NCBI GenBank assembly: GCA_030765065.1 | Contig: CM060979.1 | Coordinates: forward strand, 13,483,001-13,547,000 | Origin: Deroplatys truncata | Lineage: Eukaryota > Arthropoda > Insecta > Mantodea > Mantidae | Direction of reading: 5' to 3' | DNA length: 64,000 bases | Shown here: in pieces, positions 24,640 through 43,769 of the stretch | How positions within the stretch are numbered: the first letter of the stretch is position 1 | Layout of the letters: each line of letters opens with the position of its first letter | The notes under the pieces: generated by a model | The model's input: only the letters and a program-made list of their open reading frames with translations | Database searches by the model: none | What the model was told of the DNA's origin: nothing | Translations under genes and position numbers: made by a program

Positions 24640-25170
24640 TTTATTTCATCCATAATAACACTTACATGTTGCCGGATACGTCAGAAATATATACATTTAT
24701 ATTACAATTCATCCAGCCTATACAAATATTTTTGTATTAGATATTTGTTTAGTTCATTTTTAAACAGTTTCCCTTTTTTTGGTTTTACTGAAATCGGTGA
24801 TTTATTGAATAGTATTTTCCCTATTATTAAGGGACCATTATCTGTTAACTTCTTATTTACAGTTATTCTATGGTAATTGTTTTGTGACCTTGTTTCGTGG
24901 TTGTGATAGTGCTGATTTAAGTTACTTACTCCGTCTTTACTAACTACAACATGACTACTTTAAAAACATATAAAAATACTACTGTTAGAATTTTGTTATC
25001 TACAAAGACATTTTTACATGATTCTCTTCTATTTACATTATATATGCATCTTAAACATTTCTTCTGTAAGATTAGTAATCTGTTCATGTTAGTTATACAA
25101 GAGCTGCCCCAAACCTTGTGGATGTATTATTCCATAGTAGGTCAATTTCAGATAAGTAATATCCGGGCTT
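24640..25170 (-). mobile_element. LINE 3' fragment (same group as the copy at 50.2-52.9 kb)
   Basis: The minus strand reads HETRSQNNYHRITVNKKL, then KILFNKSPISVK and LNKYLIQKYLYRLDEL. This is the C-terminal end typical of a LINE ORF2 and is closely similar to 50.4-51.7 kb and 63.5-63.8 kb. The frame is open over about 24900-24680 and decayed above. No 5' part. Confidence 0.6.
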
Positions 25171-25279
25171 GTAGGCCATGGTATAGAAGGCATCGTGGAT
25201 ACCGACCTTTCGCCAAGTACAGCGCTTGGCATCTTCAGGGTGAAGTGATTCAGTGTCTGCGGTGGTCGGAGTCTGAATT
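25171..25279 (-). other. Hairpin-bearing repeat flank of the LINE array
   Basis: On the minus strand CCTGAAGATGCCAAGC...CTTGGCGAAAGG forms a perfect 6-bp GCCAAG/CTTGGC stem between CTGAAGAT and GAAA. Similar CTGAxGATG...GAAA hairpins end Penelope-like pieces at 10.7 and 58.45 kb. This is probably the pre-existing repeat into which the LINE array was inserted. Confidence 0.4.
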
Positions 25280-25286
25280 CGGAGAC

Positions 25287-26739
25287 TTTTTTTTTTTCAA
25301 GTGGAGGAGAATGATTTAATCACTTACCTCAGCCCCGATGGGAGTCGGGACTGAGAGTGTGGGACTCACCAATAGTCGGCATACCCACTAAAAACTCCTC
25401 CACCGGAATGGAAAATAAGGAAGAAGGAAGAAAGAGGAATTCGGAGTGGAAATGCGGCCGTACCGCTGTTGCACCGGCGTATTCAGGGTAAGGATATATT
25501 GGCCGGCCACTAGGGCTTAAGCCAGGTGAAGGTGAAGCGCCAGGACGCATGACCGAGGCCCTACTTGCGCCCTTGGGAATTCAGGAGTGAAGTGTGAAAG
25601 GAAGTTAGGAGTGAATGTGCGGCAGTAGTTTCCACCTGCGCCATTTGGAATTCAGGGTGTAAGGAATGTAAAGGAAGTAGTTAGGCATGTCTGCGCTAGC
25701 GGCCAGACCGGCCACCGCGAAACCTTGAAGCCGGAGGATGGCTGAATGTCGGCGGCGGAAGTCTTTCGTCCAGCATCGTCTCAAGGGCTGCTACCTCCGC
25801 CCTGACGTACTTTTCGATGGTTGAGGTGATGTAGGCTACTTTTCCGTCAACATCACAGAGGTGACGACCGGGAACCTGATTGCTTCGGGATCTGGTCTGG
25901 GGTTGATGTCGAAGCGGAGTTCTGTGACTTCCACCTCCAGGCTAGCAATCTTCTCCGACAAGTGCAGCAGTTCCGCCTGAATGTCCTCCAGCTTCTGGAG
26001 TATTTCAGGGGCAGCGTCGGTCGTGATGCTCGGAGTCTGAGCCTGGGCCTGGGGAGGTGGTGCGATGTACTGCGGTGGAGATGTGAAGCTCTGCGTCGTT
26101 TCAGCGATGTGCGGCGTAGCTCTACGAGGGTAGAGTGGGCAGGCGGCCTGACCGGTGAAATGCCCATTGCCCCCGCAGGAGGCGCAGAAGCGTCGTTGTT
26201 GAGTCAGGTCGTGCGCCCTTCAGTAATGGCAGCGGGGCGCGGCGTCGCATGTTGAGTCAGTGTGCCCGTACAGGCAGCAGTGGCGGCATGGCGTTGGGCG
26301 AACACTACGGCTGGCCTCAAGCTGCAGGGTTTGCCCTAACAAGGGCAGTCCTGCGCCGAGAGCCGCCAAGTAATCGTCCTCTTCCAAAAAGATGTGCCTG
26401 ACAAGTGGCGTAGGACCTCTGATGTTCCTAATTCGCGTCGCCCTGGCCGCAGACGCCCAAAAGCACTGCGCGGCGGTGAGGAGTAAAGTCTCCGGTAGTT
26501 GTCGATGAACTCCCCGGACGACAGCTGAGTGGCGTGCGTGCACGCGGTTCTGCGGTGAGTGGTTGGCTGCGCTGGTAGGAGAGGTGGCGCTGGGTGCTTC
26601 GGCTGGCGGCGGCGAAGAGGCGGGAAGCTGGTCTTCTGCGTCGGCGATGGCTGCCTCACAAGCAGGAGGCTTTGAGGCTGCGGCGGTCTTCTTCTTTCTT
26701 CCCATGTTGACTCGATGAGAGCACGAAGCGAAGATCTAA
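25287..26739 (-). mobile_element. LINE A: gag-only jockey-like element
   Basis: It starts right after the GTCTCCG motif at 26746-26740, has a 5' leader of only about 35 nt, then ORF1, then about 400 bp of 3' UTR and an A11 tail (25297-25287) followed by another GTCTCCG (25286-25280). No endonuclease or RT sequence exists. The layout is a complete short retroposon rather than a 5' truncation, like the ORF1-only HeT-A of flies or HAL1 of mammals. It would need enzymes from a relative. The 3' UTR shares hairpins and GTGGGAGT/CCCACACTCTC blocks with LINE B. Confidence 0.7.
25708..26705 (-). pseudogene. LINE A ORF1, gag-like zinc-knuckle protein
   Basis: MGRKKKTAAASKPPACEAA starts a proline/alanine-rich N-terminus. 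A nucleic-acid-binding core follows (RHIFLEEDDYLAALGAG), then CCHC knuckles CRHCCLYGHTDSTC, CHY*RAHD (broken) and CASCGGNGHFTG. A coiled coil (ILQKLEDIQAELLHLSEKIASLE) comes next. One in-frame TGA replaces an expected Cys after CHY (about 26220). A frameshift near 25845 separates the last part (TSTIEKYVRAEVAALETM). The protein would coat LINE RNA. Confidence 0.7.
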
Positions 26740-26746
26740 CGGAGAC

Positions 26747-27140
26747 TTTTTTTTCCGAGTGGAGGAAAAATACTTTTGCGTACTAACCCCATCTAAGATG
26801 AGAGTGTGGGACTCCACCTCGGCGTGAAGCCGAGGCCATACCCACTAAATAAACCTCCACCGGAGGGAAAAGTCATGGTAAGGTGAGGCAGTACCGCTCT
26901 TGCACCTGCGGATTGAAGGAAAGGAAATGTTGGCCAGCCATAGGCTGAGGCCAAGGTGTGGAAGGAGGCCGGACGCAACCATGACCGAAGCCCTGGTTGC
27001 GCCCTGGCGAAATTTTAGGTGATCTTTTTTGAGGATTCTGGAAAGCGCCATGGCGCTGCGTCCTAAGATATTACTGGTGTTGGGCGTCACAAGCAGGCAC
27101 TTGTGCGCGAGTCGTTGGATCTGAGCCAATGGCTGCGTCC
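26747..27140 (-). mobile_element. LINE B: 5'-truncated 3' end
   Basis: It carries the last part of a coding region (IQRLAHKCLLVTPNTSN), a hairpin at about 26970-27003, and the 3' blocks GTGGGTATGGCC and CCCACACTCTC also found in LINE A. It ends in an A8 tail (26754-26747) that directly touches the GTCTCCG at the 5' end of LINE A. The 5' limit against LINE F is approximate. Confidence 0.6.
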
Positions 27141-27612
27141 CTTTAACAGATATTTAGTGCATGCAAATATAAATATACGGATATATATAAATATACGGAT
27201 TTGATTAGTAATTAATCAGCTTAAGCTATAATTCTTAGCTTATTACTTATGTTAATATTCTAAGTTACACATACACTTAGGATTGCGGTAAATATTTGTA
27301 GAATTAATTTGCTCCGCCAGGTGGCGTCGTCGCTTATTAGTTAGGATGTTTAAATGTACTTGTTTGTAGTTTTGGTTTTCGCCCAAAAAGGCATCGTCCT
27401 TAATGTTATCCAAATCATTAACCATGACTATGCTGGGTCATATAGAGTGCACACCGGCGGGCAGTCTGCCTACAGTTGCAGGTGCTAGCCAGTGCCACTT
27501 GCGGGGGGGGGGCCTTCCCCCGGGACCGCCTTGACTCGGAGAGCAAGGACTTCGAGGCCACAAATTGTCACGTCGTGAAGCTGTAGTCATGGGTGTTATA
27601 ATGGGCACATTA

Positions 27613-30345
27613 CTAACGTGTCAAGATAGCTTGAATGTCGATTTCGGGCTCCCCGAGGCCTAGGGTTCTGTCAAACAGTGACAGCGGTCTTTTGTGCTTG
27701 TTGTGGTTGGTTTCATATGAACCTAATTCCTGTATGAGTCTGTTTGTGTTCTTTTCCTTGCTCTTATAGAGGTTGAAGCTTAAGCTCTTAACGAAGTCTT
27801 CAATTGAGTGTAATTTTAGTTCCTCGTGTAGGAGATATGCCGGCGCTAGCGGCGGTTGCTTAGTAATTATTCGTATTATTCTATTTTGGAGTGTTTGTAT
27901 TTTATGCATATGAGTTTTGGCCGCGTAGCCCCAAACTGGGGCTGCATACGTCAGTATTGGCCTTATTAGTGTTTTATATAGGGTTAGCCCCATGTTTATT
28001 TTCAATTGGTTATTCATGTTAAAAATTGGGTATAGTCTGTTTAGTTCACCATTGGCCTTGGCTCTGATTTTCTCAATTTGCTTATTCCAGGTCAGGCCTT
28101 GTTCCATGTTGAGACCTAAATAGGTCACTTGGTCCTTCAATTCTATTCTTTCGCCTTGATAGTTGAGGGGCTGGAGAGCGTGTTTACCTTTACGGTGAAA
28201 TGTTCTTTTAGTGAATATTATTGCTTGAGTTTTTCTAGGATTTACTTTGATCCTCCATTTGGTGAACCAAGATTCTAGTGTGTTAAGCGCATTTTGCAGT
28301 CGTAAGTGTATAATTCTCGGTTGTGTTGACTGCGTGGTTATCGCGGTGTCATCAGCGTAAATGTATTTGTTTGATCTTACCAATACTGGCATATCATTTA
28401 TGTATAAATTAAACAGCGTCGGTCCCAATAGACTTCCTTGTGGGACTCCGGCCTTGATTGTCTTGGTGCTTGATACCGCATCCTCTACCGACGTGTGGAA
28501 GCGCCGGTCGCAGAGGTAGTCCCTAATGAGGGCTATAGCGGAGTCAGGGAAATTGTAGTGTTTTAGTTTCTTTAAGAGTCCGGCGTGCCATACTTTATCA
28601 AACGCGCGTTCAATATCTAGATAGATGGCGCCTGTTGATTTATTCGTGTTGTAGCCTTTAGTGATTTCCTCCGTCATCCTGAGGAGCTGCAGGGTTGTTG
28701 AGTGTTGGGTTCTGAACCCAAACTGTTCAGGCATAAGTATGCTTTGCTTGTGTATATGTTTATTAATTCGCTTTAGTATCACTTTTTCAAGTACTTTACT
28801 TAGCGTGTTCAATAGGCTTATTGGCCTGTAGTTTATGGGAAGTGTCAGGTTTTTGTTTGCTTTCGGGAATAGCAATATTTTGGCCTCTTTCCATACAGGG
28901 GGGAACCGGCCATGTTCTAGTGTGTAGTTAAATATTTTGGCTAGTGCTTGTAAGGCTCTGATTGCTAGATTCTTCAGAACCACATTAGGTATTTTGTCTG
29001 GTCCAGGTGCTTTTCTGGTAGGCAGGTGTTTAATAATCCACCCTATTTCGCCTGGGCTAGTTTTTCGCATTTTATTGTGCGTAGGCTCTCGTCCTATGTT
29101 ATTAGCTTCGTTTTCTGTTTCTGCGATAAAATTGTCGTGTCCTGCCGTTTGGTTCGGGGAGAACACATTTTCAAGCGTGACCGCAAAGGCTTCTTCCTTG
29201 GCCCGGGGAGTTTCCGCAATGACATTATTAATTTGTAACGGAGGTATATTGGTTCGAGTGCGCGTTAGGCATCTTGCTATTCGCCAAACTGTGTTTTGTT
29301 GCGAGTTTAGATTTTCAAGGGTGTTATCCTATTGGTTTTGTATGTAAGTTCTCGCTCTTTCGTTTGCTCGGTCTCTTGCTTGGTAATATTCTGTTCTGTG
29401 TATTATGTTTCGCGTTTTTTGCCATTTGCGTCTGGCTCTGTTTTGTGCTTGTTGCAGCATTTTTACATCATTCGGGAATTTGGCGTATGTGGAGCGTGGC
29501 CGTGTAAGCGGTACGCATGCCGTGGTGGCCAGTTTGATTGCCGTTTCTAATCGATCTATCGCAGTGTCGTGTTCATTCGCGGAGTTAACCTCTAGGTCTG
29601 GTAGGTAGTAATCTACCGTGTCTTTAAAGGTATCCCAATCTACTTCATTGTAGTTATGCCTTAATGGAGCTGGTTTAAATGCTACTGGTGCATTAATTGT
29701 CATCAGAACCGGTAAGTGGTCTGATGTAAGCTCCTGTAACACTTCTAATTCTATATTGTAGCGAATGTTATTTAATAGCGCAATGTCCAGAATGTCTGGC
29801 GTGCAATTTGGTAAATGTGGTATAAAAGTGGGCTCTTCCGGCCCTGAGATTAAATAATTTCTGTTATTGATGTAATTTAATAGCTTAGTGCCTTGAGCGT
29901 TGGGGTTCCTGCAATTCCAGAGATAATGATTGCAGTTGAAGTCCCCGGCCGCAATGACCCGTGGTCCTAGATTCATTATTTTATCTAAGTCGTCCGTGTC
30001 AACGTTCCCTGGGGGATTGTACACTGACGCTATCACAATTTCAGAGTTTTCTATCTTAAGTTTTATTGCCGTTGTTTCAGCATGTGATAGGGTGGGGGAT
30101 TGAATTTGATAATGATCAATGCTTGCCTGAATGGCTATCGCGGTTCCCCCTCCTCTTCGGTCGCGATCATTTCTGTAGATTTTATAGCCCGGAACAGATA
30201 GGCGATCGGTGTTATTGATGTGTGTCTCCGATAGTAGAGCTACTTGTATTGAATATGTTTGCAGAAAATCTGCTAAATGTTTGGTCTTTTTCCTAATACC
30301 GTTGCAGTTCCAGAAAATTATTCTTAACGTGTCCGAACTAGCCAT
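27613..30345 (-). pseudogene. LINE F ORF2: AP-endonuclease and reverse transcriptase
   Basis: MASSDTLRIIFWNCNGIRKK opens the endonuclease, with SETHIN, VYNPPG, AAGDFNCNH and TSDHLPV motifs. The RT has APGPDKIPN, INYRPISLLNTLSK, YLDIERAFDKVW, GVPQGSLLGPTLFNLYIND and the catalytic YADDTAI. The thumb and C-terminal part follow, ending LGLGEPEIDIQAILTR. A single in-frame TAG after YIQNQ (29329-29331) is the only lesion: the frame is the same on both sides and would give about 910 residues, the usual jockey length. CAG to TAG is the simplest change. It is near-intact but not functional as it stands. Confidence 0.85.
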
Positions 30346-30412
30346 GACTACAGTCTTCGAAGAGTTGTCACAAAGTCAGCGAGGTAGTGAGCTATGATTA
30401 CGTCATCTGTTC

Positions 30413-31871
30413 CTATTTGACTAATCGCGTCACAGAGCCTTCTGACCATGGAATGAACTTCATTGACAGAAACCTTTTTTGAGGATTGCCTAGTGACTTC
30501 ACTAGTGCGTCCATTGCCTTGCCTGCATCTTTGTGCACTGGTCCTTTGCGTTGGGGGAGCGACTTTGCTGTCTGGTTAGGCCCGACAGCCTCCAGTAAGG
30601 GACCTACAACTACTGGTGGAGGGTTGTCCTGACTTTCACGAGGGTGTCGCTCGTCGCTGGTTGGTTCGGCCTCAGCAGCGACCTGAGGTTCCCCAACCAC
30701 TGGTGGCTCAGGTTCTGGGGCTGGTCGCGTCCTACCTTTGCTGTCCCTAATGAGCCACTCAGTGTTTTTCGTGGTAACCTCCGCGTAAGTTCGCGTTCGT
30801 CCTGTCTTTGGGGGATTCTTTGGAGGTTGTCCACTGGGCAAGGTCTTTTTCTTGCATGCTGCTTGATATGTTGGGCAACCGCGCCAGGTTGCTCCATGGC
30901 CCTGAGCGCCACATAAGAAGCATAGTCGGTTCTTAGGTGGAACCCTGCATGTCCCTGAGAAATGAGGTCCTGTACATTTGGCACAAGTGGGGGCGGGGGA
31001 CCTACATTCTCTTCTCACATGCCATAACTTTTGGCAGTGTGAGCACTGTTTTGGCTCTGTGCCGGCCCTATACTCCTCTACCTGTACTCGGAAGTGTGCC
31101 AAAAATCGGAGGTCAAGAATTTTCCTATTTTCAGTTGTATCCTGGAGTTCAATTAAGAACATCGGCAGGGGGCCCTATTTCTGTTGCGCCGCCGCATCTA
31201 AACGGCCCTGATTGCTTCGAAACCGCATTGAGCTAGGTCTTCTACGATTTCTGCACTGGAGACTTCGGCGTACAGCCCCTTAACGACATAGCGTGCGGTT
31301 CTATTCTCGGGTTGCTCTAAAAGATAGTGCTGTACGCCCCTGTCCTTGAGATGCTTAGCCACAGTTTGGTAAGTCAAGGTTGAACGCCTTGATACAAAAG
31401 TCTCCAGAGTTTCTAGCTACACACAGAGTAATGAGTATTATTGAGGTGGTGTGTCTTGTCTAGGTCTTTGATTAGCTGGTGGAATGTCGCGGCCTGGTTC
31501 TTTCCTACAAAGATTGGCGCTATGGGGGACCTCCTGTCCTTCATGAAATCGGAGGGTTCCTGTCGAGCGTCTGGTCCTGCGTCCTTAGAAGTGCCAGCTT
31601 TCGGCGAGGACGGTATCACAGGAGTAGGTGTTTGGGTAGAAGTAGGTATAGGAATGGGAAGTCGTGAGTTGGGTGTCACAGGAGTGGGTTTAGTAGGTGA
31701 GTCAGAAGGTGTAGGGCTGGAAGGAGTTTGGGTGCTAGGTGAAAAAGGCACAGAAGTGGAAGGAGTAGGAAAGATAGGTTTAGGAAGGGCGGCCTTCTTC
31801 CTAGTCATCATTGTCTTCGGTGCTGAAAGGGTTGGCTTGGTGGCCGTCGTCGTCCTGTTTCCCTTTGCCAT
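30413..31871 (-). pseudogene. LINE F ORF1, gag-like protein
   Basis: MAKGNRTTTATKPTLSAPK begins a long P/S/T-rich leader. A PRE-C2HC-like region (RTARYVVKGLYAEVSSAEI and nearby) follows in a shifted frame at about 31410-31200. The frame 31162-30413 then has the three knuckles CSHCQKLWHVRREC, CAKCTGPHFSGTC and CFLCGAQGHG...GC. Two frameshifts, near 31410 and 31200, separate the three parts. The tail (KSLGNPQKRFLSMK) ends 65 nt before ORF2. Confidence 0.75.
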
Positions 31872-32116
31872 CCTATCTTAGGTGAAGTTGTTCAAGAGAG
31901 AAGGGAAAACCTAATACTTAGCCTAACAGGGGGCTTAGTCTAGAAGGAAAGAGGAAAAAGTACAGTAGAAGAGAAAGAACAGTAAGTGAGCGCTAAGAAG
32001 CACGGGGAGACAGAGGGTCGAACTTCGGAGAGGCGCTTAAGCAAGTCTTGCGACTGCTTGCTGTGACCGTGTATCCCCTACTCGTCTGTACTGCGAGAGT
32101 TGTGCTCAAAGAGCTA

Positions 32117-32188
32117 GGCTTTGGTTAAGCAACCGCGGCAATCCCGAGCCGAAGGCTTTGGTACAAGTACCACGGCAATGCCGAGCCG
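32117..32188 (-). repeat. Tandem duplication in the LINE F leader
   Basis: Two units of about 36 bp, each GGCTTTGGT...CGGCAAT(C/G)CCGAGCCG in + orientation, lie side by side in the 5' UTR of LINE F. Repeated leader segments are known in promoters of several LINEs. Confidence 0.6.
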
Positions 32189-32704
32189 TTCCAGCGGTGG
32201 CTGCTTCTTTGCAGCGGACTGCTTCTTTCTTGTCTGGGAGCTCCTCTAGTAGATGTTGCTTGGTCCACATCTCGAAGCGAAGTGGTAACGGAGACCAGAC
32301 AGAGACAGACAACGTAATTAAGGTTAGCAGATGCTAACCAAGGCTGCTCAGGGTAATCCCTCTTCAGCCAAGTAATGATTTATTTTTTATTGGTTGTAGC
32401 ATCGACATCCCACAGAGTCATCGCAACAGCATGGATGATTGTGATTTATGGTGGTTGAAAGGATCAGGGAAGTGTTTTGGGGATTTTTTTATGGTGTCGG
32501 ACACACGACTCAGGGCTTAGCCCACGGAAATTTTGTTTTTTCTTGAAGGTTGATGTTTACTTTGTGGACTTGTTTATGTGATGTTTCTTTTTGTATGGAG
32601 TTTGGTTTTGGTTTCTATCGTTGCTTGCTGGTTTAATTAATGTTTATTTGATAGGTTCTTGTAGGATTTGTTGTGCTGCTGCTTGGTCCTGTTCATGTGT
32701 TTTT

Positions 32705-35700
32705 TCAGTATGATGTTTTATATATGTAACTGGAGTTAGTGTTAGTTCTGGGAGTTGGTTGTTGGCACGCTTTTTGAAGTTTTCTTCTGATTGTAGAAGC
32801 TGTTGTCGGTGAGGGAGTTTGGAGGCTTTTGCTATGTAGGTTGTATAAGCTCGGTCGATGAATTCTTTCAATGGTTCTGTTTTTGTTAGTGTATGGATAT
32901 CTCTGTTGGGGTAGCAGTAGGGGACTTGCTGCAATGCGTAGGCATTTCCGCTCCATTGTTTCCATCAGGTGCATGGTGGTTGGTGCTGTGGTTGGGGCTG
33001 GTGCTACAGCTACGTATGTGAGGACTGGTCGGACGAGTGTTTTGTAAAGGTGTAATAGTGCTTCAGTTTTTAGTCCTTCGCCTCGCTGGTTGCTCAGGTA
33101 TCGTAGTGTTGCTTGGATTGGTTTTATTTGTTTCAGCTTGGAGTTGAAGTGTTTGGTTTTCAGGCGACGGGTGATTAATATTCCAAGATATTTTGCTGTG
33201 GTTTTTGTTTTTATATGTGTTATGCCGATTTTAATTTGTAAATTTTTACGTTGAAAGCAGCTTTTTCGTTTGATGGCCAGTATTTGTGTTTTGTGCGGAT
33301 TAATTGAAATGCGCCATTTATTCGCCCAGTCAGTGAAGATGGCAAGTTGCGCCTCAAGCTTTTTTTTGGCAACTGTCGGTTTTAATTCGGTGCACCAATA
33401 TAGCGTATCGTCTGCATATTGGGCTAGTGAGACTGTTGGTGTTTTTGGCTGAGGAGTGTCATAGGTATAGATGATGTATAGGAGGCCAGAGATGGCACTT
33501 CCTTGGGGGGTTCCAGCTTGTAGTTGAATGAGGTCGGACAGTGTATTATTTATTTTTAGTCTGGCTGTCCTGTTGTTTAGAAAGCTAGCTATCCAGCGTA
33601 CAATGTTTTTTGGGATGCTTAATGTTGTCATTTTGAACAGGAGACCGTTGATCCAGCATTTGTCGAACGCTGCCTCAATATCCATGAAGGTCGCTATGGT
33701 AGTTTTGCTACGGTTGTAGCCGTCTTGGAAATTCGAGAGGACACGTAATAGTTGGTCCTGGATGGTTATATCACACCTAAAGCCTGCTTGGGTGTCAGGA
33801 ATTATTTTTGTGTTGTTTATGAATGTGTGTAGGCGGTTGACCAATATCTTTTCCAGTATTTTGTATAGAGTGGTGGTGAGGGAGATTGGTCGGTAGTTCT
33901 TATGGTTTGTGTTATCCTTGCCCGGTTTTTCAAAGAGCAGTATGTGTGCGTGTCGCCAGTTTTTTGGATGATAGCCGTGTTTTAGGCACTTGTTGTATAG
34001 TTGATGTAATCTGTTGATCATTTCCTGTGGTAGTTCTTTGAGCATTTTATAGGTTATTTCATCCGGGCCTGGGGCTGTGTTGCCCTGGGTTTGTATGGTG
34101 GCGGTTAGTTCGAAAAGTGTGATCGGTCTTGCTGGTCCTGTTGTTTCGTCAGGTTCATAGAGTTCATCTTGTGGGGTGTAGCGCAGTGGTGAATTCTTCA
34201 CATGATAGTTTATGCGGTTGTAGCATTGTTTGTCAAAGTTCGGATGTTCTGGTGTTTGAAAGATGGTGTCATAATGTGATTTAAATAGTTGTAGTTTTTC
34301 TTCGGTGTTCCAGATATGTTTGTCATCAACTTTTATGGGGTAGGTGGTGTGTTTCTTTCCTCTCGTTGCCTTTATGAGTTGCCAGAATTTTTTGGGTTCC
34401 TGTGTGTGGTGTTGATTTAGTGTTTGTATATATTCCGTCCATTTGTTGGTGCGAAATTCTATTATTGCGTTTTTGACTGCTTTCTGTATATGGTTATATA
34501 TTGTTTTGTCGTATTGATGATGTGTTTTCATGTATTGGCGGTGTGCTTTTCTTTTCTCTTTAATTAACAGTATTATGTTTTTTGGTAGTGTGTTGATGTT
34601 CCTTCCCGGGTCTCGCTTGGATGTTGGGACGGCAATCTGGCGAGCTTGTATTATTTTTGTGATTGTGCTCTCTTCTTGATCAATTTGCGCTGTGATATTT
34701 CCATTAGTATTTATTTCAGCGGTGGCGAGTCGCTTGTTGATTTCTTGTCTATAGAGGTTCCAATCAGCTTTTCTGTAGTTTGGTACTTCATATGGTGTCA
34801 AAGTTTCGTAGTACCATCTATTGGTGGCGATGGTTACTATGATCAGTATGTGGTCGGTGTTTGTTGGTACATCTGTTTGTATTTCTAGTATTTTATGGTG
34901 AAGTTGAGGTGATGCTAGTACCTTGTCTGGTGATGTCGGTTGTTGGGTGCCTGTCCCAATTCGGGTGGGCCCGGGTATAGGGGCAATTTTCAGTTTTGTT
35001 TCGCTTAGTATGCGCAGTAATTCTTTACCGTAGAGGTTTGTGGTAGTATCCAGCAGGCTGTGATGTGCATTAAGATCTCCAATGATGAGTAGGTTGTTGT
35101 ATTTATTGCTAAGGTATTTTATTAGGGCATTGGGGAACTGATTGTTCTGGATGGACATTTGGTTTGGTGGTGCATATTGTCGCGTACCTCGATAATCTGT
35201 AATTTATTATTTAACTTTCAGAGGAGAGCTACTCGCTGTGAGAGGGTCGTTATTCAAAACTAAGGAAACTTTACTTTAAGAGGCACCGACACAAAGGGAC
35301 GCAGCTAAAGTTAAATTCACAAATATTCTTACACTCACATAATTCCTGGCTGAAGGGAAAGGCAAGGATTCTATACTACCATAATTAAAAAGTCAAGGAA
35401 GAAGCTTAAGTAGAAGATTTATTAAATATGCTTACCCATGTGTCTGCCGGGACGAGGACGCCCTATCATTGCACAACTATCCGTACATCTCAACACCACG
35501 AAGACTAGACACTGACTCCTGAAAAAACTCGTTAAGCTTGGCGTCCTAACGCCATATCCCCTCCAATGAGACTATTTCCCCTCAAACGCCCCTCCTCGGA
35601 TAAGCTGCCAACCTTCAGCTTGAGTAACCAGAGGGCACGGCTATTACTACAATCTGTGCACATGCCACATCTCCCCCTGGCCACCCAAGTCGACGTCCTC

Positions 35701-37022
35701 GTCGACAGAAAGAACATAAGTATACAAAATACAGGAAAAAACAAAAGAAAGACATACCAAAAAAAATGACATAGAAATGTGTGATGTAAAATAAAAGAGC
35801 AATACATATTTGTGGTTGCACCCAGCCGACGACAATGGTGCTGGGCGATAACGAGAAGCGAGAGCGATGTAAGTGCAGTCGACGTAATATTGTTAATGCA
35901 CTAGCTTTGGCATCCCGCACACGCACACACCACGCTGCCTTAGTTCACAGACACACTACACTGCGCAAAAGGGTGATGAACTGCCGTAACTGTTTGTGGG
36001 TGGTTGAGACAGTGCCCACAACGACGATTTGTCCTGGTGTAGGATTAGCACCGCAGGTCTCTGGTGATGACAACAGGGTGGGCAGTCGCTGGCTTGGACT
36101 GCCCCCCGACATGGTGGCTCCTTATGCCACGGCAGTGTAGTGGCTGCCCGACAGCTTCCCGTGGTGTTTCTTGACTTCTGGTGTGCTCTGGGGATGCTCT
36201 GGAGATGCTCTGGAGATGCTGGTGCATCTTCTCGCTCTCTGCCACTGCACACTACTAAAACAAAACCACCACACAATAAACAGGATGCTCCCACAAAGAA
36301 TCACACAGAAAAGAAGGGTATGTCCTTTACAAATAAAGATTTTAAAGTATGAAAAGTGTACACTAAAAATTCTTTTGACATGGGCAAGTAAAGAGAAAGG
36401 AAAATTAGAACAAATTGGCATAAAAAGAAATTTTTACAGAGTTGCCATCCAAAATTGAACTTACAATGCTTCATAATCCAAATGCCTCCACCAATTTGTC
36501 GCGTACCTCGATAATCTGTAATTTATTATTTAACTTTCAGAGGAGAGCTACTCGACTGACTCCTGAAAAAACTCGTTAAGCTTGGCGTCCTAACGCCATA
36601 TCCCCTCCAATGAGACTATTTCCCCTCAAACGCCCCTCCTCGGATAAGCTGCCAACCTTCAGCTTGAGTAACCAGAGGGCACGGCTATTACTACAATCTG
36701 TGCACATGCCACAATATATGGCGGCTATAACGATGTTTTGGTTGTTGAGGTGAATTTGTGTTAACACTGCCTCAGCCGCTCGGAATTCATCGGGCAGTGG
36801 TATTTGTGTTGTACGATGGATGGGTTTAATCAGTGTGAGCACTCCACCCCCTATTCCAGTTTCGGGATCATGACGGTGGGTCTGGTATGGCGGAAAAGTA
36901 AACATGTTATATGGTTTCAATTTGGTTTCATTTATTGCTATTATGTCCGGGTCGTGTTCATTGATGGCTGCTTTAAGACGATCTTTTTTGGATCGAATTC
37001 CATTAATGTTAATGTGCAGCAC
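32705..37022 (-). CDS. LINE C ORF2: AP-endonuclease and reverse transcriptase (split by an insertion)
   Basis: The part 37022-36718 carries endonuclease motifs HININGIRSK and AINETKL and ends VIAAIY. The part from about 35177 resumes APPNQMSIQ, with IIGDLNAHHS and NTDHILI. The RT then follows: APGPDEITYKML, KNYRPISLT, FMDIEAAFDKCW, AGTPQGSAISGLLY, and QYADDTLYW with the catalytic DD. The stop is at 32705. The intervening 1.54 kb is an LTR element with ATAT duplicated, and no other lesion is visible in about 930 codons. An in-frame start upstream of 37022 is not obvious, and the frame overlaps the ORF1 end near 37090. This is the least damaged LINE coding region in the window. Confidence 0.85.
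35178..36713 (-). mobile_element. Small non-autonomous LTR element (fossil) inside LINE C
   Basis: Direct repeats start at 35178 and 36488, both TGTCGCGTACCTCGATAATC in + orientation, and both end in TGTGCACATGCCACA (at about 35671 and 36713). A 4-bp target duplication ATAT lies at 35174-35177 and 36714-36717. On the minus strand a purine tract (GGGGGAGA) precedes the 3' LTR, and a primer-site-like TGGTGGAGGC follows the 5' LTR. The interior of about 0.8 kb has no coding motif. It is younger than LINE C, and the two LTRs differ in length. The LTR ends match those of the solo LTRs at 16983 and 8336. Confidence 0.8.
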
Positions 37023-37550
37023 TTCTATGTGATGTTTTTCCTTAATTACAGGCGCTATTTCTTGTCTTTTGTTGTTTTGTTTGGTCTTTTTGTTGCTTTT
37101 AGTTTTGTTGTGTTGTTTCTAGTGTGCTTACTAGTACTGCCAGCTCGGTTCCAATGTTTGTAATGTTGATTGTTTTGTTGAGTGTTTTGCGAAAGGTATC
37201 TTGTATTGTTTTATTTGTCCTCTCTCGGTGTTCGGGAGGTGTGATTTCTTGAAATGCTACTGTCAGGCTTTTTAGCATCTGGTCGGCAAGATGGTGGAAG
37301 AGCTTCAATACGAAGTCTGTTTGTATCTCATGGTGTTTCCTCATCTGTTCTAGTGTTTGCTGGTGTTGTTTGTTGCTGGCTTTGGTGAGGTCTTTTAGCA
37401 GTTTTGTGATTTCAGATTCAGATTTCTTTTATACGGAATAGTGACCTGGTGCCGGTACATAGGGCCCGGCTAACAGGCAAAACTTTACATGAAATACATA
37501 TGTCTTATTGTTTATGAGATGAGTTGACAGAAAAATAAAGAAAAACCCAT

Positions 37551-37575
37551 TCGGCAACCATGCTTAGGTTGCCGA
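37551..37575 (-). promoter_or_regulatory. Perfect hairpin in the LINE D 3' UTR
   Basis: TCGGCAACC and GGTTGCCGA form a 9-bp perfect stem around a 7-base loop, between A/T-rich arms. It is about 150 nt from the 3' end, where LINE RTs often recognise RNA structure. Confidence 0.4.
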
Positions 37576-37636
37576 GAACAGTTTTTTTGTGCATGTTATT
37601 GTTTCTTTTTTCAATTTGAAAACAATTTTTTTTTCT

Positions 37637-37645
37637 TACACACAT

Positions 37646-37692
<47 letters not shown>

Positions 37693-37737
37693 GCACGCTC
37701 GCACTCACACACACACGCGCGCGCGCGCTCACTCACG
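37637..37737. repeat. Compound (CA)n-(TA)n-(CA)n-(CG)n microsatellite
   Basis: Runs of ACACAC, then more than 30 bases of alternating TA, then CACACA and GCGCGCGC, all in the 3' UTR of LINE D. Alternating purine-pyrimidine tracts of this length can form Z-DNA or cruciforms. Confidence 0.85.
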
Positions 37738-37839
37738 CATTTGGTCATGCGCTGCACGTCCCAGTTCCGACACACGGAAGCACTAGCACACGAAATAAAT
37801 AAAACACACTTAACACTGACTATATACAATATATACAAG

Positions 37840-40420
37840 TCCGCGGTTTTGCTGTGCGGCAGCTTGTATCCTCCATGGAGGGGACGCCATCTGGCGGGGG
37901 CCTCCGCCGTATTTGTGAGTGGCCTTGGGCCGGGTGAGATGGGCGCGCAAAGTGGCGAGCCAGTGTTGTTTCAGAACATTTTGATTCGCGCATGTTTGCG
38001 GTGTTTTGGCTCGCCACTGCCGATGTTGGAAATGAGATGATTGTCATGTCGTCGTATGCGCGCCCATACGGAGCAGCCTCTTTTTGTTATTGCATCTACT
38101 ATTGTTGGCATGTTTGTTTCTTCATGTGGGGTTCTATTGTTTGTGAAGAAGGGGACTTGGAGAATTTTCCTGAGGGAAATGTTTTGAACAGTCTGGAGGT
38201 ATTGGAGGGCAGTTTTAGAGGCGCTCGCCCAAGCCGCACAGGCGTAGAGGACCACTGATAATATAAATGACTTATATAGAACAAGTTTGGATTTTAATTT
38301 AAGCTGTTTGTTTCGGAAGACGGGGGCGCATAACTTTAATCGCTGCCGCCCTTTGTTGGCGGTATTTTTTTAAGTGGGTTGTCCATCGCATTGTGTGATC
38401 CATTGTCACGCCAAGGTACTTGATTTGCTGACGGCGGTGCAATCTTTGACCACCGACCGTTAGGTCCATTGCCGGAGGGCGTGCCCGCTTAGAGAAATAA
38501 ATTAGCTGGCACTTATTTGCATTAATTTCTACTTTCCAATCGTGGAACCACGAGAGGAAGCGGTCAACTTACCGCTGCATTTCCAAAAGACCGAAACGAG
38601 GATTTTTGTGGTGGTTGTAGATTGCAGTGTCGTCAGCATACATTGCGATTTTGCATCTGGCGTCCACAGGGAAATCATTAGTAAATAATATGTACAAAAA
38701 GGGGGACATTATAGCCCCTTGAGGGACGCCAGCCCGCATAACTCGCTCCCGGGAGGAGGAGCGGCCCACTTGGACGTAGAAGCGCCGGTTTTCTAAGTAA
38801 TTTTGAATTAAGAACATATAATCCTGGAGGCCGCGAAAGTTGTGGTGCAGTTTGTAAAGCAGGCCATTATGCCAGCACCGTTCGAATGCGGCTTCTGCGT
38901 CCAAAAATAACGCCAACGTTGAAGCCCCATTGTTAATTGCTCGGTTATGTCATCAGCAAGTCGTAAGAGCTGTAATTCTGTAGAGTGTGCTTTTCTAAAA
39001 CCAAACTGAGATTTTGAAAATTCGTTAGTTTCCGAAACTTGTTTTTGTAGTCGATAAAGTATAATTTTCTCAAGCAATTTGCCAATAGTAGACAGGAGAC
39101 TAATGGGGCGGTAATTTTGAGGTTGCCTGGTGCTTTTCCCTTGCTTAGGCAGCATAATCACCTTGGCTCGTTTCCAAGTGGCTGGGAAATAGTTATACCT
39201 CAAACAGGCGTTGAAAATCTTGGTGAGTTGCACCAGGGCTTTTCTCGGGAGATGTTTGAGTTCCTCATTAGTCACCTTGTCCGGGCCGGCGGCTTTCCCA
39301 TTAGGCAATTGCCTAATGAGCTTGTACACTTCCTGCGGTGTTATATGTGGGTGATGTTGCTCACGCTTCTGCGCCATCCAGTTTTGTACCCATGTCTGTA
39401 CTTCTTGTGCTTTGTTTAGATTGTGTGTGATGTTTTCTGAGAATCTGTCTTGCAGACAGTCGGCGAATATCTCGGCTTTTTCCTCTGAGGAGAAGTGCAG
39501 GCCGAGTGGAGTGTGTAGCGCCTCAGTGCCAGTAGGAGCGCTAGAGGAGACCTTGAATGTCCTTAATAATTTCCATAAAGACTGGTCCGAATGTGTGGTA
39601 CTCAGCATTTTATTTTCCCACTGTTCACTTTTGTTAAGCTGAATCTGTTGCCGAATGATGTTGCGTAGCCACTTTGCTGCAACTTTGTATTCGGGCTGGC
39701 GGGTAAGCCGCCACAGTCTCGTCAGGCGTCGCCTCCTAGCAATGAGCTGCTCCACCTCCGGGTACGTGCAAAAACTGGGTGGACTTGTGGTGTACGTGGT
39801 AGCGTTTCTTTTGGCCGTGTGTAGCGAGGCAGTGAAGTTTTCAACGGCGGCATCAATGTTTGCCTCGCTGTAGTATGACAGCTTAGGCTGAGCCATCCTG
39901 TGCATATCCATGGTAAATTGTTGCCAGTTTGTCTCTGCTCGGCGCTGGGGGCCGTGACCGCGCCGCAGATTTCGAAATGCACAGGTAAATGGTCAGAGTC
40001 TAAGCTGTGATACACTGTTAAATTTTGAGTAATAGCCGCATTTTTTGTAAGCACGAACTCCAAAATTTCAGGATCAAAGTGACCTGTTTTATGCCAAAAA
40101 GTGGGTTCTGGGGGAAAGTGAACCTCAATGTCGTCATTCTCCGTTATAAGTTCTACCAGGAGATTTCCGGTCGCGTTTGCTCGGCGTGAATGCCACCATG
40201 GGTGCCGAGCGTTGAAGTCTCCTGCAATTATAACGTGCTCCTCTAAATTGAGGATCTGTTCGAGGTCTCTCAATAAAGGTGAGCCAGGGGGCCTGTAGAG
40301 CGCTACCAACAATACTGTTCGGTTATTGATGCAAATTTTTAGTGCTGTGCACTCCAACGCTGTCAATGCTGGCAGCGTGACAGGAGCGTGAGCAACTGTG
40401 TTTTAAAAATATGGCGGTAC
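37840..40420 (-). pseudogene. LINE D ORF2: AP-endonuclease and reverse transcriptase
   Basis: The endonuclease frame 40366-39722 has ALYRPPGS, IAGDFNARHPWWHS and SLDSDHLPV. The frame 39911-38808 has GKAAGPDKVTNEEL, NYRPISLLSTIGKLLEK and FGFRKAHSTELQLL. The frame 38916-38569 has LFLDAEAAFERCW, AGVPQGAIMSPFLYILFTND and the catalytic MYADDTAIY. The C-terminal part lies at about 38258-37971. At least three frameshifts (near 39900, 38930 and 38300) break the gene. The first endonuclease motif, with its Asn, lies above 40366 in a decayed region. It is clearly older or more damaged than LINE C ORF2. Confidence 0.8.
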
Positions 40421-40635
40421 CACCCCCCTGTCGGCCAAATCTGTCATTTCGAAAAACTTTGTAACCCCTGAGGTTAAAAGTGTACTCTTATTTTAAATTT
40501 AGTTTCGCAAATAAATGCGACATCAATTTTGTTACGCCGCAGGTAGTTTTCAAGTTCGTGCTGTTGCCGGTAGATGCCGTCGGCATTCCACAGGAGCGCG
40601 CGAGTTAAAGTTATACCTCCTCTTACAGTGGCCAT

Positions 40636-41809
40636 CTAATCGAAGATTGTGGAGAGAAAGCATATGATGGTTTCTAGCTTGTCCCAGGTGCTGGTGCAGC
40701 CTTTGAATTTTGTGATGAATGGCTTCACCTTTGGGAGGAGTGTTGGGAGGTTGAAAGATTTAAATAGATCTATGAGATCTTTTAGCCCGCCCAGGTCGCC
40801 AGCGGGCTCCTTGGAGGGGGGACCACTTGGTGGTGGCACGGGTGCCTTTTGCCCCTTAGCGGCGCCTGCAAATAAGACGCCTTCCTTGACCAGGGCCGGG
40901 TTAAGAATGGGTTTTGGCCCTGGCTTAGCACCCGGGGAGCTCCTGGCCATGGATGCCAGTTGGCGGCGGTGGCGTTCGTTTCTGAACGTTTCACAACCGC
41001 GATAGCTGGCGGATGCGTCTCCCTACAGTTCGCACAGTGGGGTACAACGTCCTGCGTGGCCTTTTTGGGGCAGTCAGCTAAGCGGTGGAGGCCACCGCAG
41101 AGGACGCACCGGGAGGTCATGTGGCACATTTGGAAAGTGTGCCCTAGTTGCTGGCAGTTCTAGCATTGAGTTATGTGGTGGTTGGTTCGGAGGACCTCCA
41201 CGGTGACCATCATATGGCACACCTCTCTCTCCTGCAATAGTTTAGTGTTTGCAGTGGTCCTATCTAGGGTGACTTGGAAAGTAGGCAGAGGCCGACCGCG
41301 TGATTTGAGTTGTCGTACCTGGACGCCGGTGTATCCTTTGAGCTGCAGGCTTTCTCGGATGAAGTCCTCCTCCAGGTCCTCCGGGAGTCGCTTAATGACG
41401 TACCGGAGGGGCTGGTCACTCCGGGGTGTGAAACTGTAGCTCTCGATGCCGGCGTCCTTCAGGTGTCCCATGGTGGGGATGGCGTCCTCCTTCCTGCTGA
41501 GGAACAGCTTCAGGCAAGTGCGGGTGTTTTGGAGCTTGTATTTGTCGGCCTGGAGCGAGTTTCGCAGGACGTGCAGGACCTTTGTTGCGTGTTTATTGTC
41601 TGGTATTATAATCCTGGGTGGCTTCTGTGACTCCGGATTGTTGGTGGCCGCTGTTGTGGCGGAGGTGGAGGTGGAAGGTTTCGGGTGTGTGGAGGTGGAA
41701 GGTTTTGGTTGTGTGGAGGTGGACGGTCGCGGTGATGTGCGCGCCGGCCTTTGGATTTTGGGTTGAGGAGAGGGGGGAGAGGAGCTGCGGCTGGTGTTGC
41801 CTGGTCCAT
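40636..41809 (-). pseudogene. LINE D ORF1, PRE-C2HC and zinc-knuckle gag-like protein
   Basis: The leader MDQATPAAAPLPPLLNPKSK is proline-rich with repeated LPPPHT words. After a frameshift, RIIIPDNKHATKVLHVLRN and a PRE-C2HC-type domain (RYVIKRLPEDLEEDFI) follow. The knuckles are CVLCGGLHRLADC and CANCRETHPP, with the first (NCQQLGHTFQMC) next to a TAG near 41160. Further shifts occur near 40985. The C-terminus ends at 40636 (FLSTIFD). Domain order is that of jockey, Doc and F-type ORF1. Confidence 0.75.
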
Positions 41810-43231
41810 CTCGGCGTCGCTGCTGTCCGCGGCGTCGGAAAGTACCGCAAACTTGTTGCTGGTCGTGACTGGTGTCGGTTGTAGGTGGCGCGTTTTGTTT
41901 TTGTGATTTCTTGTCTGCTTAGGTCCGTTTTATTTTCAGGAATGGTAGGTAGGGGAGTGGCTTGTGTTTCATTGGTTAGTGGTGGAGGGGAAGGGGATGG
42001 TGGAGGTGGGTTGTTGTGAGGGAATATTCTTATTGGCTGAATGTGTTGCATTGTGCTGGGGGCCTCTTTTGGATATAATGGGCATCGTATTTGCTCGGTA
42101 TAGTGTCCCGGGTCATTGCATGTGGCGCAGAAGGGTTCATTTGGTGTTCGGCTGTCATGTGTGCATATTTGTGTGATCCTATTGTTTCCGCAGTAGAAGC
42201 ATCGCGGGTCATTTGTGCAGTTGTCCAGGTTATGGCCGTACTTTTGGCATTTTCGGCATGGGACATGTCTGGTGGTTGTTCTCGCCGGCTCAACACGGTA
42301 GACCTGGCTTTCTAGCACAATACCTTTGTTCAGAATTTCTTGCATTGTTTGCAATTCATCTGAAAATCCGCACTAGCGGTGTTGGCTGGTTTGTAGCTCG
42401 GCTGATTATTCTCACAGCCCGGTTAATGGTTGGTTGGTTTTCCTGTATCGCATTAAGTAGTTCCGCGTCAGGTACTGCGAGGGGAACATTTTTAATTACG
42501 GCTACCAGTTGTCTCTTCTGTCGCGGTGAGGCGTCTTCTTGGATTAGAGTTGTTAGCATGGTCAGATAATGGGCCTGTGTTCCAAAATTGGTGGCGCTGA
42601 TCGCTTGCTGAAATATTCGCCCTTGCTGTTCAGTTTTAAATGCAATGCCTAATGTGTTCTTTGGTTTGTATATTGGGCTGATTCTGACTATCTGGATAGG
42701 GTAGTTTTGGTCTACTTTCTTAGCTATGAGTTCCTTCACTCGGAAGTAATTGAGGTGTTTCTGTTCGCATGGTGTGACATAGATCGAAGCTTCCATGTGG
42801 AAGGACTTCGTTTCTGAGTGTTGGTGATCGAAGTTTTGTGTTGTTGTCTTTCTCAGTGTTCTTGACCTGGGCTTGGATTCTCGGGCCTAGTTCGCTCTCT
42901 GATTCCAGGCTTGTGTCCGATAGGTTATTTTCGGACATTCCGTCGTCGCTGTGGTGGATAGGTGCTTTCTCCTGATGTGAGCTTTTAGTTGCTGTTGTGT
43001 GTTTAGTGGATGTTCCTGGTTGAGCATGGGTCGATGTAGATTTGTTTTCCGGTTTGTCTAGTTTAGGCGGTGGTTTTCCTGTTTTAACCATGGTGTAGTA
43101 GCTGATACTGGGTTTTGGGCTGTATGTGTGGTCGTGTGTCTAGATTTTGAGTTTTGTGGTGATAAGGCAGGTATTATTATGGGCTGTGGTCAGATGGATT
43201 GGCTGCTAATTAGCTCGTCTGGTGTGTTGCC

Positions 43232-43282
43232 TCGGCCGAAGCCGAATAAGTGTGGTTTCAAGAAACCACAGGGTAAAACCCT
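43232..43282 (-). promoter_or_regulatory. Three consecutive hairpins in the LINE C leader
   Basis: TCGGC-CGAA-GCCGA (43232-43245), TGTGGTTTCAAGAAACCACA (43251-43270, a perfect inverted repeat) and AGGGT-AAA-ACCCT (43270-43282) stand side by side, about 140 nt upstream of ORF1. They are visible directly. A role in translation start or RNA processing is only inference. Confidence 0.5.
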
Positions 43283-43599
43283 TTAACTAAGCTTAGAAAG
43301 TTTAGGGCTAATACCAGACTGGCCACAGGATAGGTAAGGTGGGTGAATTGGAAGAGGTTATGATGATTATGATTTCCGGCCTGAAAAGGAAGAAAGTATT
43401 AGGGTACCGCAGGACCGTGGACGGCTGGCTGACTGCGCTGTGGTTGGCTGACGCTGCTGAGGTAGGCGGGATGTTGTGGCTATCTCCGCTGCTCGCTGCT
43501 GGCTCGTTGGCTGCTTCCCGGCGTTCACCTGCTCGAAGACTCGAAGAAATTCTTAGAGGCTCGCTGACTACACCGCTCGGTTCCACGCCCACGCATTAA

Positions 43600-43680
43600 C
43601 GGAGACCAGAGGATGGCGCTCTTATATAGTGGGGGTGGGCTTACTGTGAGGTCCTGTGCAGTGATTGGCTCGCGTCTCTG
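43600..43680 (-). promoter_or_regulatory. TATA/CACCC/CCAAT promoter-like block upstream of LINE C
   Basis: On the minus strand AGCCAATCAC (around 43664), CCCACCCCCAC (around 43634) and TATATAAG (43628-43621) lie in the usual order of a pol II promoter. The expected start about 25-30 nt after TATA falls on GTCTCCGTTA, the first bases of LINE C. It may be LINE C's own promoter or that of the repeat in which the array sits. Confidence 0.5.
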
Positions 43681-43769
43681 GGAGTGGGTGGGTAATTTGC
43701 TAGGCTCCTTATTAAGTGGAGATGTGTACTTGTGTGTATTTTCTTACATATGTAGTCAATATGGTGTCT

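Follow-up and report, generated by a model that had tools for sequence, protein, structure and literature searches.

Long interspersed nuclear elements (LINEs) that lie head to tail raise the question of why successive copies inserted at the same place. We examined a stretch of 64,000 nucleotides from the mantis Deroplatys truncata (GenBank assembly GCA_030765065.1, contig CM060979.1, positions 13,483,001 to 13,547,000 of the forward strand), hereafter the window, in which three elements designated F, B and A follow one another on the minus strand. The word GTCTCCG stands at their junctions, at 43606-43600, 32295-32289, 26746-26740 and 25286-25280, and an earlier, sequence-only reading had proposed that it is either a target sequence duplicated at each insertion or a 5' end conserved among LINEs to which further copies are drawn. 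Our results indicate that it is a target word. We conclude that these LINEs prefer TATA-containing core promoters, and that what recurs is the position behind the TATA box rather than GTCTCCG itself. The array is very probably the product of three successive LINE insertions at one promoter site, with a nick approximately 22 nt behind the TATA box and a similar rule at other TATA promoters.

Three elements lie head to tail within a high-copy repeat

The sequence-only reading had located the word at these four places, with TTA following it at the three 5' ends, and both observations were reproduced: all three 5' junctions read GTCTCCGTTA, that is, the target word followed by TTA. Counts of the word at chance level would have spoken against that reading; the window contains eight copies on both strands, as compared to 1.94 expected, and none of 100 shuffles reached eight. 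Four of the eight sit at no array junction. The order of F, B and A also stood, and the F tail, which ends GTCTGTCTCTGTCTG, directly abuts B. In contrast, a fourth LINE, C, which had been counted as the first member of a four-LINE array, proved to be nested in F, where it is flanked by a 12-bp duplication, GAAATCACAAAA, at 41910-41899 and 37413-37402. The division into C and F as two members of the array was thus rejected, and the 5' end at 43606, formerly assigned to C, belongs to F. The last element, A, carries ORF1 (the first open reading frame, ORF) only.

When the sequence before F was joined to the sequence after A, the two formed one contiguous high-copy repeat, which we call T. Scoring 40 of 1597 candidates yielded 43 matches to the joined flanks, 40 of them nearly full length with 91-95% identity, and most covered positions 28-241 of the query. 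Within 220 nt around the site, the target word was found once per copy in all 30 empty T copies (GTCTCCA in 15, GTCTCCG in 12 and GTCTCTG in 3; general form GTCTC(C/T)(G/A)), where it immediately precedes a ATTCAGAC-like motif. In both the window and the T consensus, the first letter of the word lies 22 nt behind the initial T of the TATA box, TATATAAG.

T probably corresponds to the 3' end of a Penelope-like element. Before its TATA box it holds GVYKVPCSCGKVYIG...NNFNRKEEAL-type frames that probably represent the GIY-YIG end of such an element, as judged from their sequence; three of these frames gave no Pfam match at a cut-off of 0.01. An inverted T copy often adjoins T. A hammerhead ribozyme had no Rfam support among 12 T loci, in which Rfam returned five sub-threshold matches to other families, all within a single fold-back at locus L024.

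GTCTCCG is a target word duplicated at insertion

A pattern comprising the T upstream part, GTCTCY(G/A) and any letter but C matched 14 places. Five were intact or shortened T copies (L141, L143, L146, L036 and L030), and nine, including the window, carried other sequence directly after the word (also L142, L144, L145, L147, L148, L149, L150 and L151). LINE 5' ends directly follow the word at L147, L148 and L150, and what follows it at L142, L149 and L151 reads as internal LINE ORF pieces. Because 5'-truncated LINE pieces start right after it, the word is a target-site duplication. Only duplications of up to 7 bp can fit this pattern, which therefore gives no measure of their length. Outside T, 7-bp duplications of other words were observed: AGTGGGC at L046, located 21 nt after TATAAG, and TGAAACC at L063. 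A second array in T, at L047, has the word between its elements and before the T downstream part.

The T insertions L147, L148, L150 and L229 lack TTA behind the word, and the TTA shared in the window therefore indicates the order of insertion, probably A, then B, then F. A would have arrived first with its own 5' end, TTAGATC, such that the TTA in 26737..26746 is probably its first three nucleotides. B and subsequently F would have entered at that very spot, and a duplication of 10 bp would have repeated the TTA. The opposite order is disfavored because the repeated TTA would need two coincidences, and F as the oldest insertion was dropped as a candidate, since A first better explains the shared TTA. 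On this order, which is drawn from one array, the newest element would lie closest to the TATA box, which would fit a site that is set from that side.

Other copies occupy the same nucleotide of T

The T pattern without its first letter occurs at 214 places. A base other than G precedes the word at 72 of these (control, 0), and all 72 were read: 13 were empty sites with an altered base and 59 were non-empty. Thus, 59 of the 214 T sites are non-empty at exactly the same base, which bears out the site preference that the sequence-only reading had proposed. At the remaining 142 sites, which were not individually read, the word is preceded by G; tails that end in G, such as that of F, would hide there. 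The inserted sequence ends A-rich at 58 of the 59 sites, the exception being L079, which is T's own inverted copy. The tails form groups of 32, 11, 7 and 2, so that four families account for 52 of the 59, and there are seven singletons, which include L079 and L086, where just five A residues follow TATATAAG. Several tail families at T share the nucleotide, the sense orientation and a short duplication.

TATA boxes are enriched ahead of insertions outside T

To characterize insertions elsewhere, we used a 16-letter pattern of the LINE 5' end, which matched 493 places (control, 1), as the exact 33-letter 5' end occurs at only 5. The first 40 were read; here and below, sampled places are the first of their list and not a random draw. 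Five of them lay behind another tail, of A/B type at L195, L220 and L230, F-like at L197 and a bare poly-A at L231. In the 35 non-array copies we scored matches of at least 7/8 to the TATA consensus starting at -42 to -27 before TTCGC, with neighboring 16-nt windows and shuffles as controls. Such a match was present in 19 of the 35 (10/18 and 9/17 in the two batches), whereas neighboring windows had 0, 2 and 1 and shuffles averaged 1.93 (maximum 7). At a threshold of at least 6/8 the count was 27 of 35 (shuffle mean 10.71, maximum 19). When one copy per target group was retained and every group with an array copy was dropped, which excludes the group of repeat V described below, 10 of 23 carried the TATA box, against 0, 2 and 1 in neighboring windows and a mean of 1.18 (maximum 6) in 1000 shuffles. 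The sampled 5' ends outside T carry words other than GTCTCCG at their junctions.

A second promoter-like target was also recognized. Its junction, generalized from four copies (L158, L216, L225 and L231), reads TATAAAGAGAGCGGCACTAACG, then GCCAACGCATCAGACG, and the corresponding pattern, AAAAGCCAACGCATCAGACG, occurs at 140 places (control, 0), most of which were not individually read. Before the cut, the sequence at L216 and L225 ends AACG, not AAAA. Of the A and D tails listed (100 each), 6 and 9, respectively, end at the second target by coordinates, with none antisense; two of the six A tails are local neighbors in a cluster, and on C1, six of the 140 places fall within 74 kb. At L231, poly-A is followed by GCCAACG and then by an A-type 5' end, the counterpart of GTCTCCG in the window. 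Pairing of 5' ends with junctions by distance (same strand, 1375-1655 bp downstream) gave duplications of approximately 10 bp at L216, 8 bp at L225 and 7 bp at L231. For T and the second target alike the cut lies at TATA+22, and for L046 it lies at +21, counted from TATAAG. That the second target is itself Penelope-like (we labeled it PLE-2) is a guess.

We also noted a promoter-like repeat, V (GAGTATAAA..), which is a recurrent LINE target at L197, L200, L206, L208, L212, L214 and L221; several V copies have a GGTAACG-like end. A cut at TATA+22 in V was considered and withdrawn, as L197 suggests approximately +19.

Limits of the promoter rule and alternative explanations

Several observations weigh against a general rule of insertion behind TATA boxes. 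Most A-type copies lie at neither T nor the second target. We read the 3' flanks of the best 30 A loci by score and of the first 40 of 2967 places with an A-tail pattern, and most run into unrelated sequence. Among the best 30, T directly follows the tail in the window and at L074, and L047 belongs to an array in T; among the 40 tails, none lies in T and one (L158) in the second target. Unrelated sequence after the tails was what the sequence-only reading had named as evidence against target specificity, and in part this is what was found: nearly all copies in one target, as strict specificity would have it, is not the pattern of A or D tails. Some other targets recur. L052 and L057 are repeated targets with hairpins resembling those of T, and a GCGCAGTT-type repeat was hit repeatedly (L056, L059 and probably L174 and L186). 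Some of the A-tail flanks are duplicate rows (L153-L155; L152, L171 and L173). CAGT at offsets 8-10 behind the tail was found in 10 of the 70 flanks, as compared to a background of 0.46 per offset (6 of 51 after grouping of similar flanks, as compared to 0.27), which is enriched but confined to a small part of the flanks. A fuller initiator score was weak, with 19 flanks against 14.0 expected, and a fixed spacing of the initiator did not hold up across the flanks.

The TATA test itself has limits of the same bearing. The interval scored was chosen with T, L046 and the first 20 copies already in view, the second 20 copies share target families with the first 20, and the enrichment was measured in this LINE group alone. 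Eight of the 35 non-array 5' ends lack even a 6/8 match in that interval, and the TATA spacing is spread over approximately 15 nt. The only downstream junction seen at V (L197) implies about TATA+19, not 22, and at L047 the word is missing where the T upstream part meets foreign sequence. Finally, T (CCG/GTC, where the slash marks the cut) and the second target (ACG/GCC) share CG/G, and a preference of the endonuclease may thus play a part in the choice of target.

This last point is the basis of the best of the alternatives, a plain sequence-specific endonuclease that recognizes a motif at the cut, such as CG/G, in the promoters of a few abundant repeats, with the TATA box as a passenger. The common CG/G and the repeated use of the same repeat families are consistent with it. 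However, the duplicated words differ (GTCTCCG, GCCAACG, AGTGGGC and TGAAACC), and the TATA enrichment persists with one copy per target group; we therefore consider this explanation unlikely, though not negligible. A general preference for open chromatin at active promoters, lacking positional recognition of the TATA box, would agree with the many TATA-bearing targets in our sample. Accessibility alone should nevertheless scatter both sites and orientations, whereas a single nucleotide recurs at 59 of 214 T sites and at the 140 second-target places, and no antisense neighbor was present among 200 listed tails, which makes this explanation improbable. It is still harder to derive the array from tandem duplication or unequal exchange: some tail copies elsewhere do resemble segmental duplicates (L153-L155, and the six clustered second-target places on C1), but F, B and A are different elements with their own tails, the reverse transcriptases (RTs) of F and B being 34% identical and A lacking ORF2. 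That GTCTCCG is a conserved LINE 5' end, as its presence at three 5' ends in the window had suggested, can scarcely be maintained, given that it occurs in empty T copies and before internal LINE pieces and that other words stand at 5' ends outside T.

Features of the window

The coordinates of the array and its surroundings are given in Table 1. The two inserts in F were delimited by their duplications, and the LTR-type (long terminal repeat) insert of approximately 1.5 kb contained no ORF of at least 200 aa. RVT_1 and Exo_endo_phos_2 were matched on the F ORF at 32705-35158. In the scan of the nine window ORFs of at least 200 aa, B and F matched Exo_endo_phos and RVT_1, and RNase H was not matched. 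ORF1 of B, and of B only, matched PF07530 (PRE_C2HC; E 3.9e-5, 24.1 bits against a cut-off of 22.1), a domain linked to jockey. By domain content, B and F are thus putative members of the jockey clade. The solved structures nearest to the B endonuclease and RT were TRAS1 and a chain named RNA-directed DNA polymerase, then L1, respectively. Element A is 1.45 kb long; its protein resembles B ORF1 (30% identity over 74 aa, E 8e-6) and had no match to the endonuclease or RT of B and F at E up to 1. Its 3' untranslated region (UTR) resembles that of B, and near-full-length relatives were found at L046, L053, L054, L060 and L063.

Table 1. Elements, junctions and target sequence of the array, in window coordinates
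Feature	Position	Strand	Basis
T upstream part, with CCAAT motif (43669-43662) and TATA box TATATAAG (43628-43621)	43607..43693	-	Joined flanks match high-copy repeat
GTCTCCGTTA joining T and F; starts 22 nt past first T of TATA box	43597..43606	-	
LINE F: endonuclease and RT, tail end GTCTGTCTCTGTCTG, two inserts within	32296..43596	-	Domain matches
LINE C, nested in F with GAAATCACAAAA on both sides; not an array member	37414..41898	-	12-bp duplication
LTR-type insert in F: TG..CA ends, ATAT duplication	35178..36713	-	Ends share 159-bp and 59-bp repeats
GTCTCCGTTA joining F tail and B	32286..32295	-	
LINE B: ORF1 with PRE_C2HC, endonuclease ORF (29329-30345), RT ORF (27613-29166), poly-A end	26747..32285	-	
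GTCTCCGTTA joining B poly-A and A	26737..26746	-	
Element A: ORF1-only relative, B-like 3' UTR, poly-A	25287..26739	-	ORF1 match
GTCTCCG, downstream copy of target word behind A tail	25280..25286	-	
T downstream part: initiator-like TTCAGAC (25277-25271), hairpin arms (25238-25225 / 25217-25202)	25160..25279	-	

A LINE reading frame seems to continue at 43694-44500 and below 25160 on the minus strand, on either side of T, and from these flanks T itself seems to have inserted into another LINE. Elsewhere in the window, an ORF at 1669-2451 on the plus strand has a DDE_Tnp_4 transposase domain (E 2.6e-28) and is a DNA transposon relic.

Further observations concern A-type copies and the junction word across the assembly (G000). 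A short unit with GCAGTT..ACAGAATC-like sequence recurs at the A-type tails of L056, L059, L174 and L186. Same-strand A-type 5' ends lie 1443-1462 bp apart at C3:84782855-84785771 and C4:95796006-95797483, which tandem rows of ORF1-only elements would fit. A genome-wide search with GTCTCCGTTA gave 1819 matches and was uninformative, the eight loci examined being C1 satellite unrelated to LINEs. Thirteen same-strand GTCTCCGTTA words, among them the eight read in this satellite, lie at C1:2005916-2057102, and their spacing suggests an 18.7-kb duplication.

A possible route to promoter capture

The copies at T share their site, a duplication and their orientation, and the TATA box is enriched at 5' ends elsewhere. 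A mechanism consistent with these observations would involve three insertions into one promoter site of an apparent Penelope-like element. Target-primed reverse transcription would begin at a nick approximately 22 nt behind the TATA box, in sense orientation, and 7-10 bp of the target would be duplicated. Since the TATA box would be left intact and the site recreated, later LINEs could use it again and form a head-to-tail stack. The nicking complex might be guided by TATA-bound factors or by the shape of promoter DNA, with some endonuclease preference for CG/G.

Given a duplication of 7-10 bp, the inserted LINE begins approximately 29-32 nt behind the TATA box. RNA polymerase II usually starts at about that distance behind a TATA box. 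The first base of the LINE would thus stand at the polymerase II start, and transcription of a new copy could begin at its very first base; the captured promoter could drive the LINE. The broader proposal, that this LINE group lands on the RNA polymerase II core promoter itself, by way of TATA-bound factors or of the promoter DNA bent and opened by them, nicks approximately 22 nt behind the TATA box, places its first base at the natural start site and captures the promoters of Penelope-like and other repeats, such that full-length copies arrive with a working promoter, has in our judgment an even chance of being correct.

Relation to known systems

At T, independent copies lie at the same nucleotide and empty sites are present, as in target-specific LINEs. 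Such LINEs are known for ribosomal DNA, the spliced leader, transfer RNA (tRNA) and small nuclear RNA genes, transposons, microsatellites and telomeric repeats, and most of their families fall in the early-branched, Tx1 and R1 groups (PMC4640811). They likewise recur at a single nucleotide within a repeat, with 5' boundaries that vary and, occasionally, tandem copies in the same target (PMC4640811). Their targets are particular repeated sequences, whereas here unrelated sequences share a position behind the TATA box and most copies lie elsewhere. In Dictyostelium, TRE5-A integrates in a narrow interval near tRNA genes. The distance is reportedly about 48 bp upstream. TRE5-A is thus also a LINE found at a set distance from a promoter and not in a fixed sequence, but it uses RNA polymerase III genes, whereas the promoters here are TATA promoters of the polymerase II type and the insertions lie between the TATA box and the start.

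In Drosophila telomeric arrays, the promoter is said to be supplied by neighboring sequence, which would resemble the arrangement proposed for the window. HeT-A, TART and TAHRE also form head-to-tail LINE arrays (PMC9723646, PMC11698117). Addition at a chromosome end without duplication, a trait of those elements, is not what we observed; the target here is internal, target duplications are present and the promoter comes from another repeat. The pLTRs of Penelope, which have inverted copies, can carry a TATA box and an initiator-like sequence (PMC3846280). T is similar to what is described there in that a GVY..YIG-type coding tail is followed by a TATA box and an initiator-like motif, often with an inverted T copy adjacent (PMC3846280); it differs in being the target and not the inserting element, and in its lack of Pfam support. 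Among the matches listed in a search of the open-access literature, the titles and abstract openings reported no LINE that targets TATA promoters or Penelope-like elements.

If the promoter rule is true, a LINE group that inserts at a set distance behind the TATA box would add a target defined by promoter geometry to those already known. It would also bear on how LINEs keep full-length copies expressed, with one retroelement parasitizing the promoter of another.

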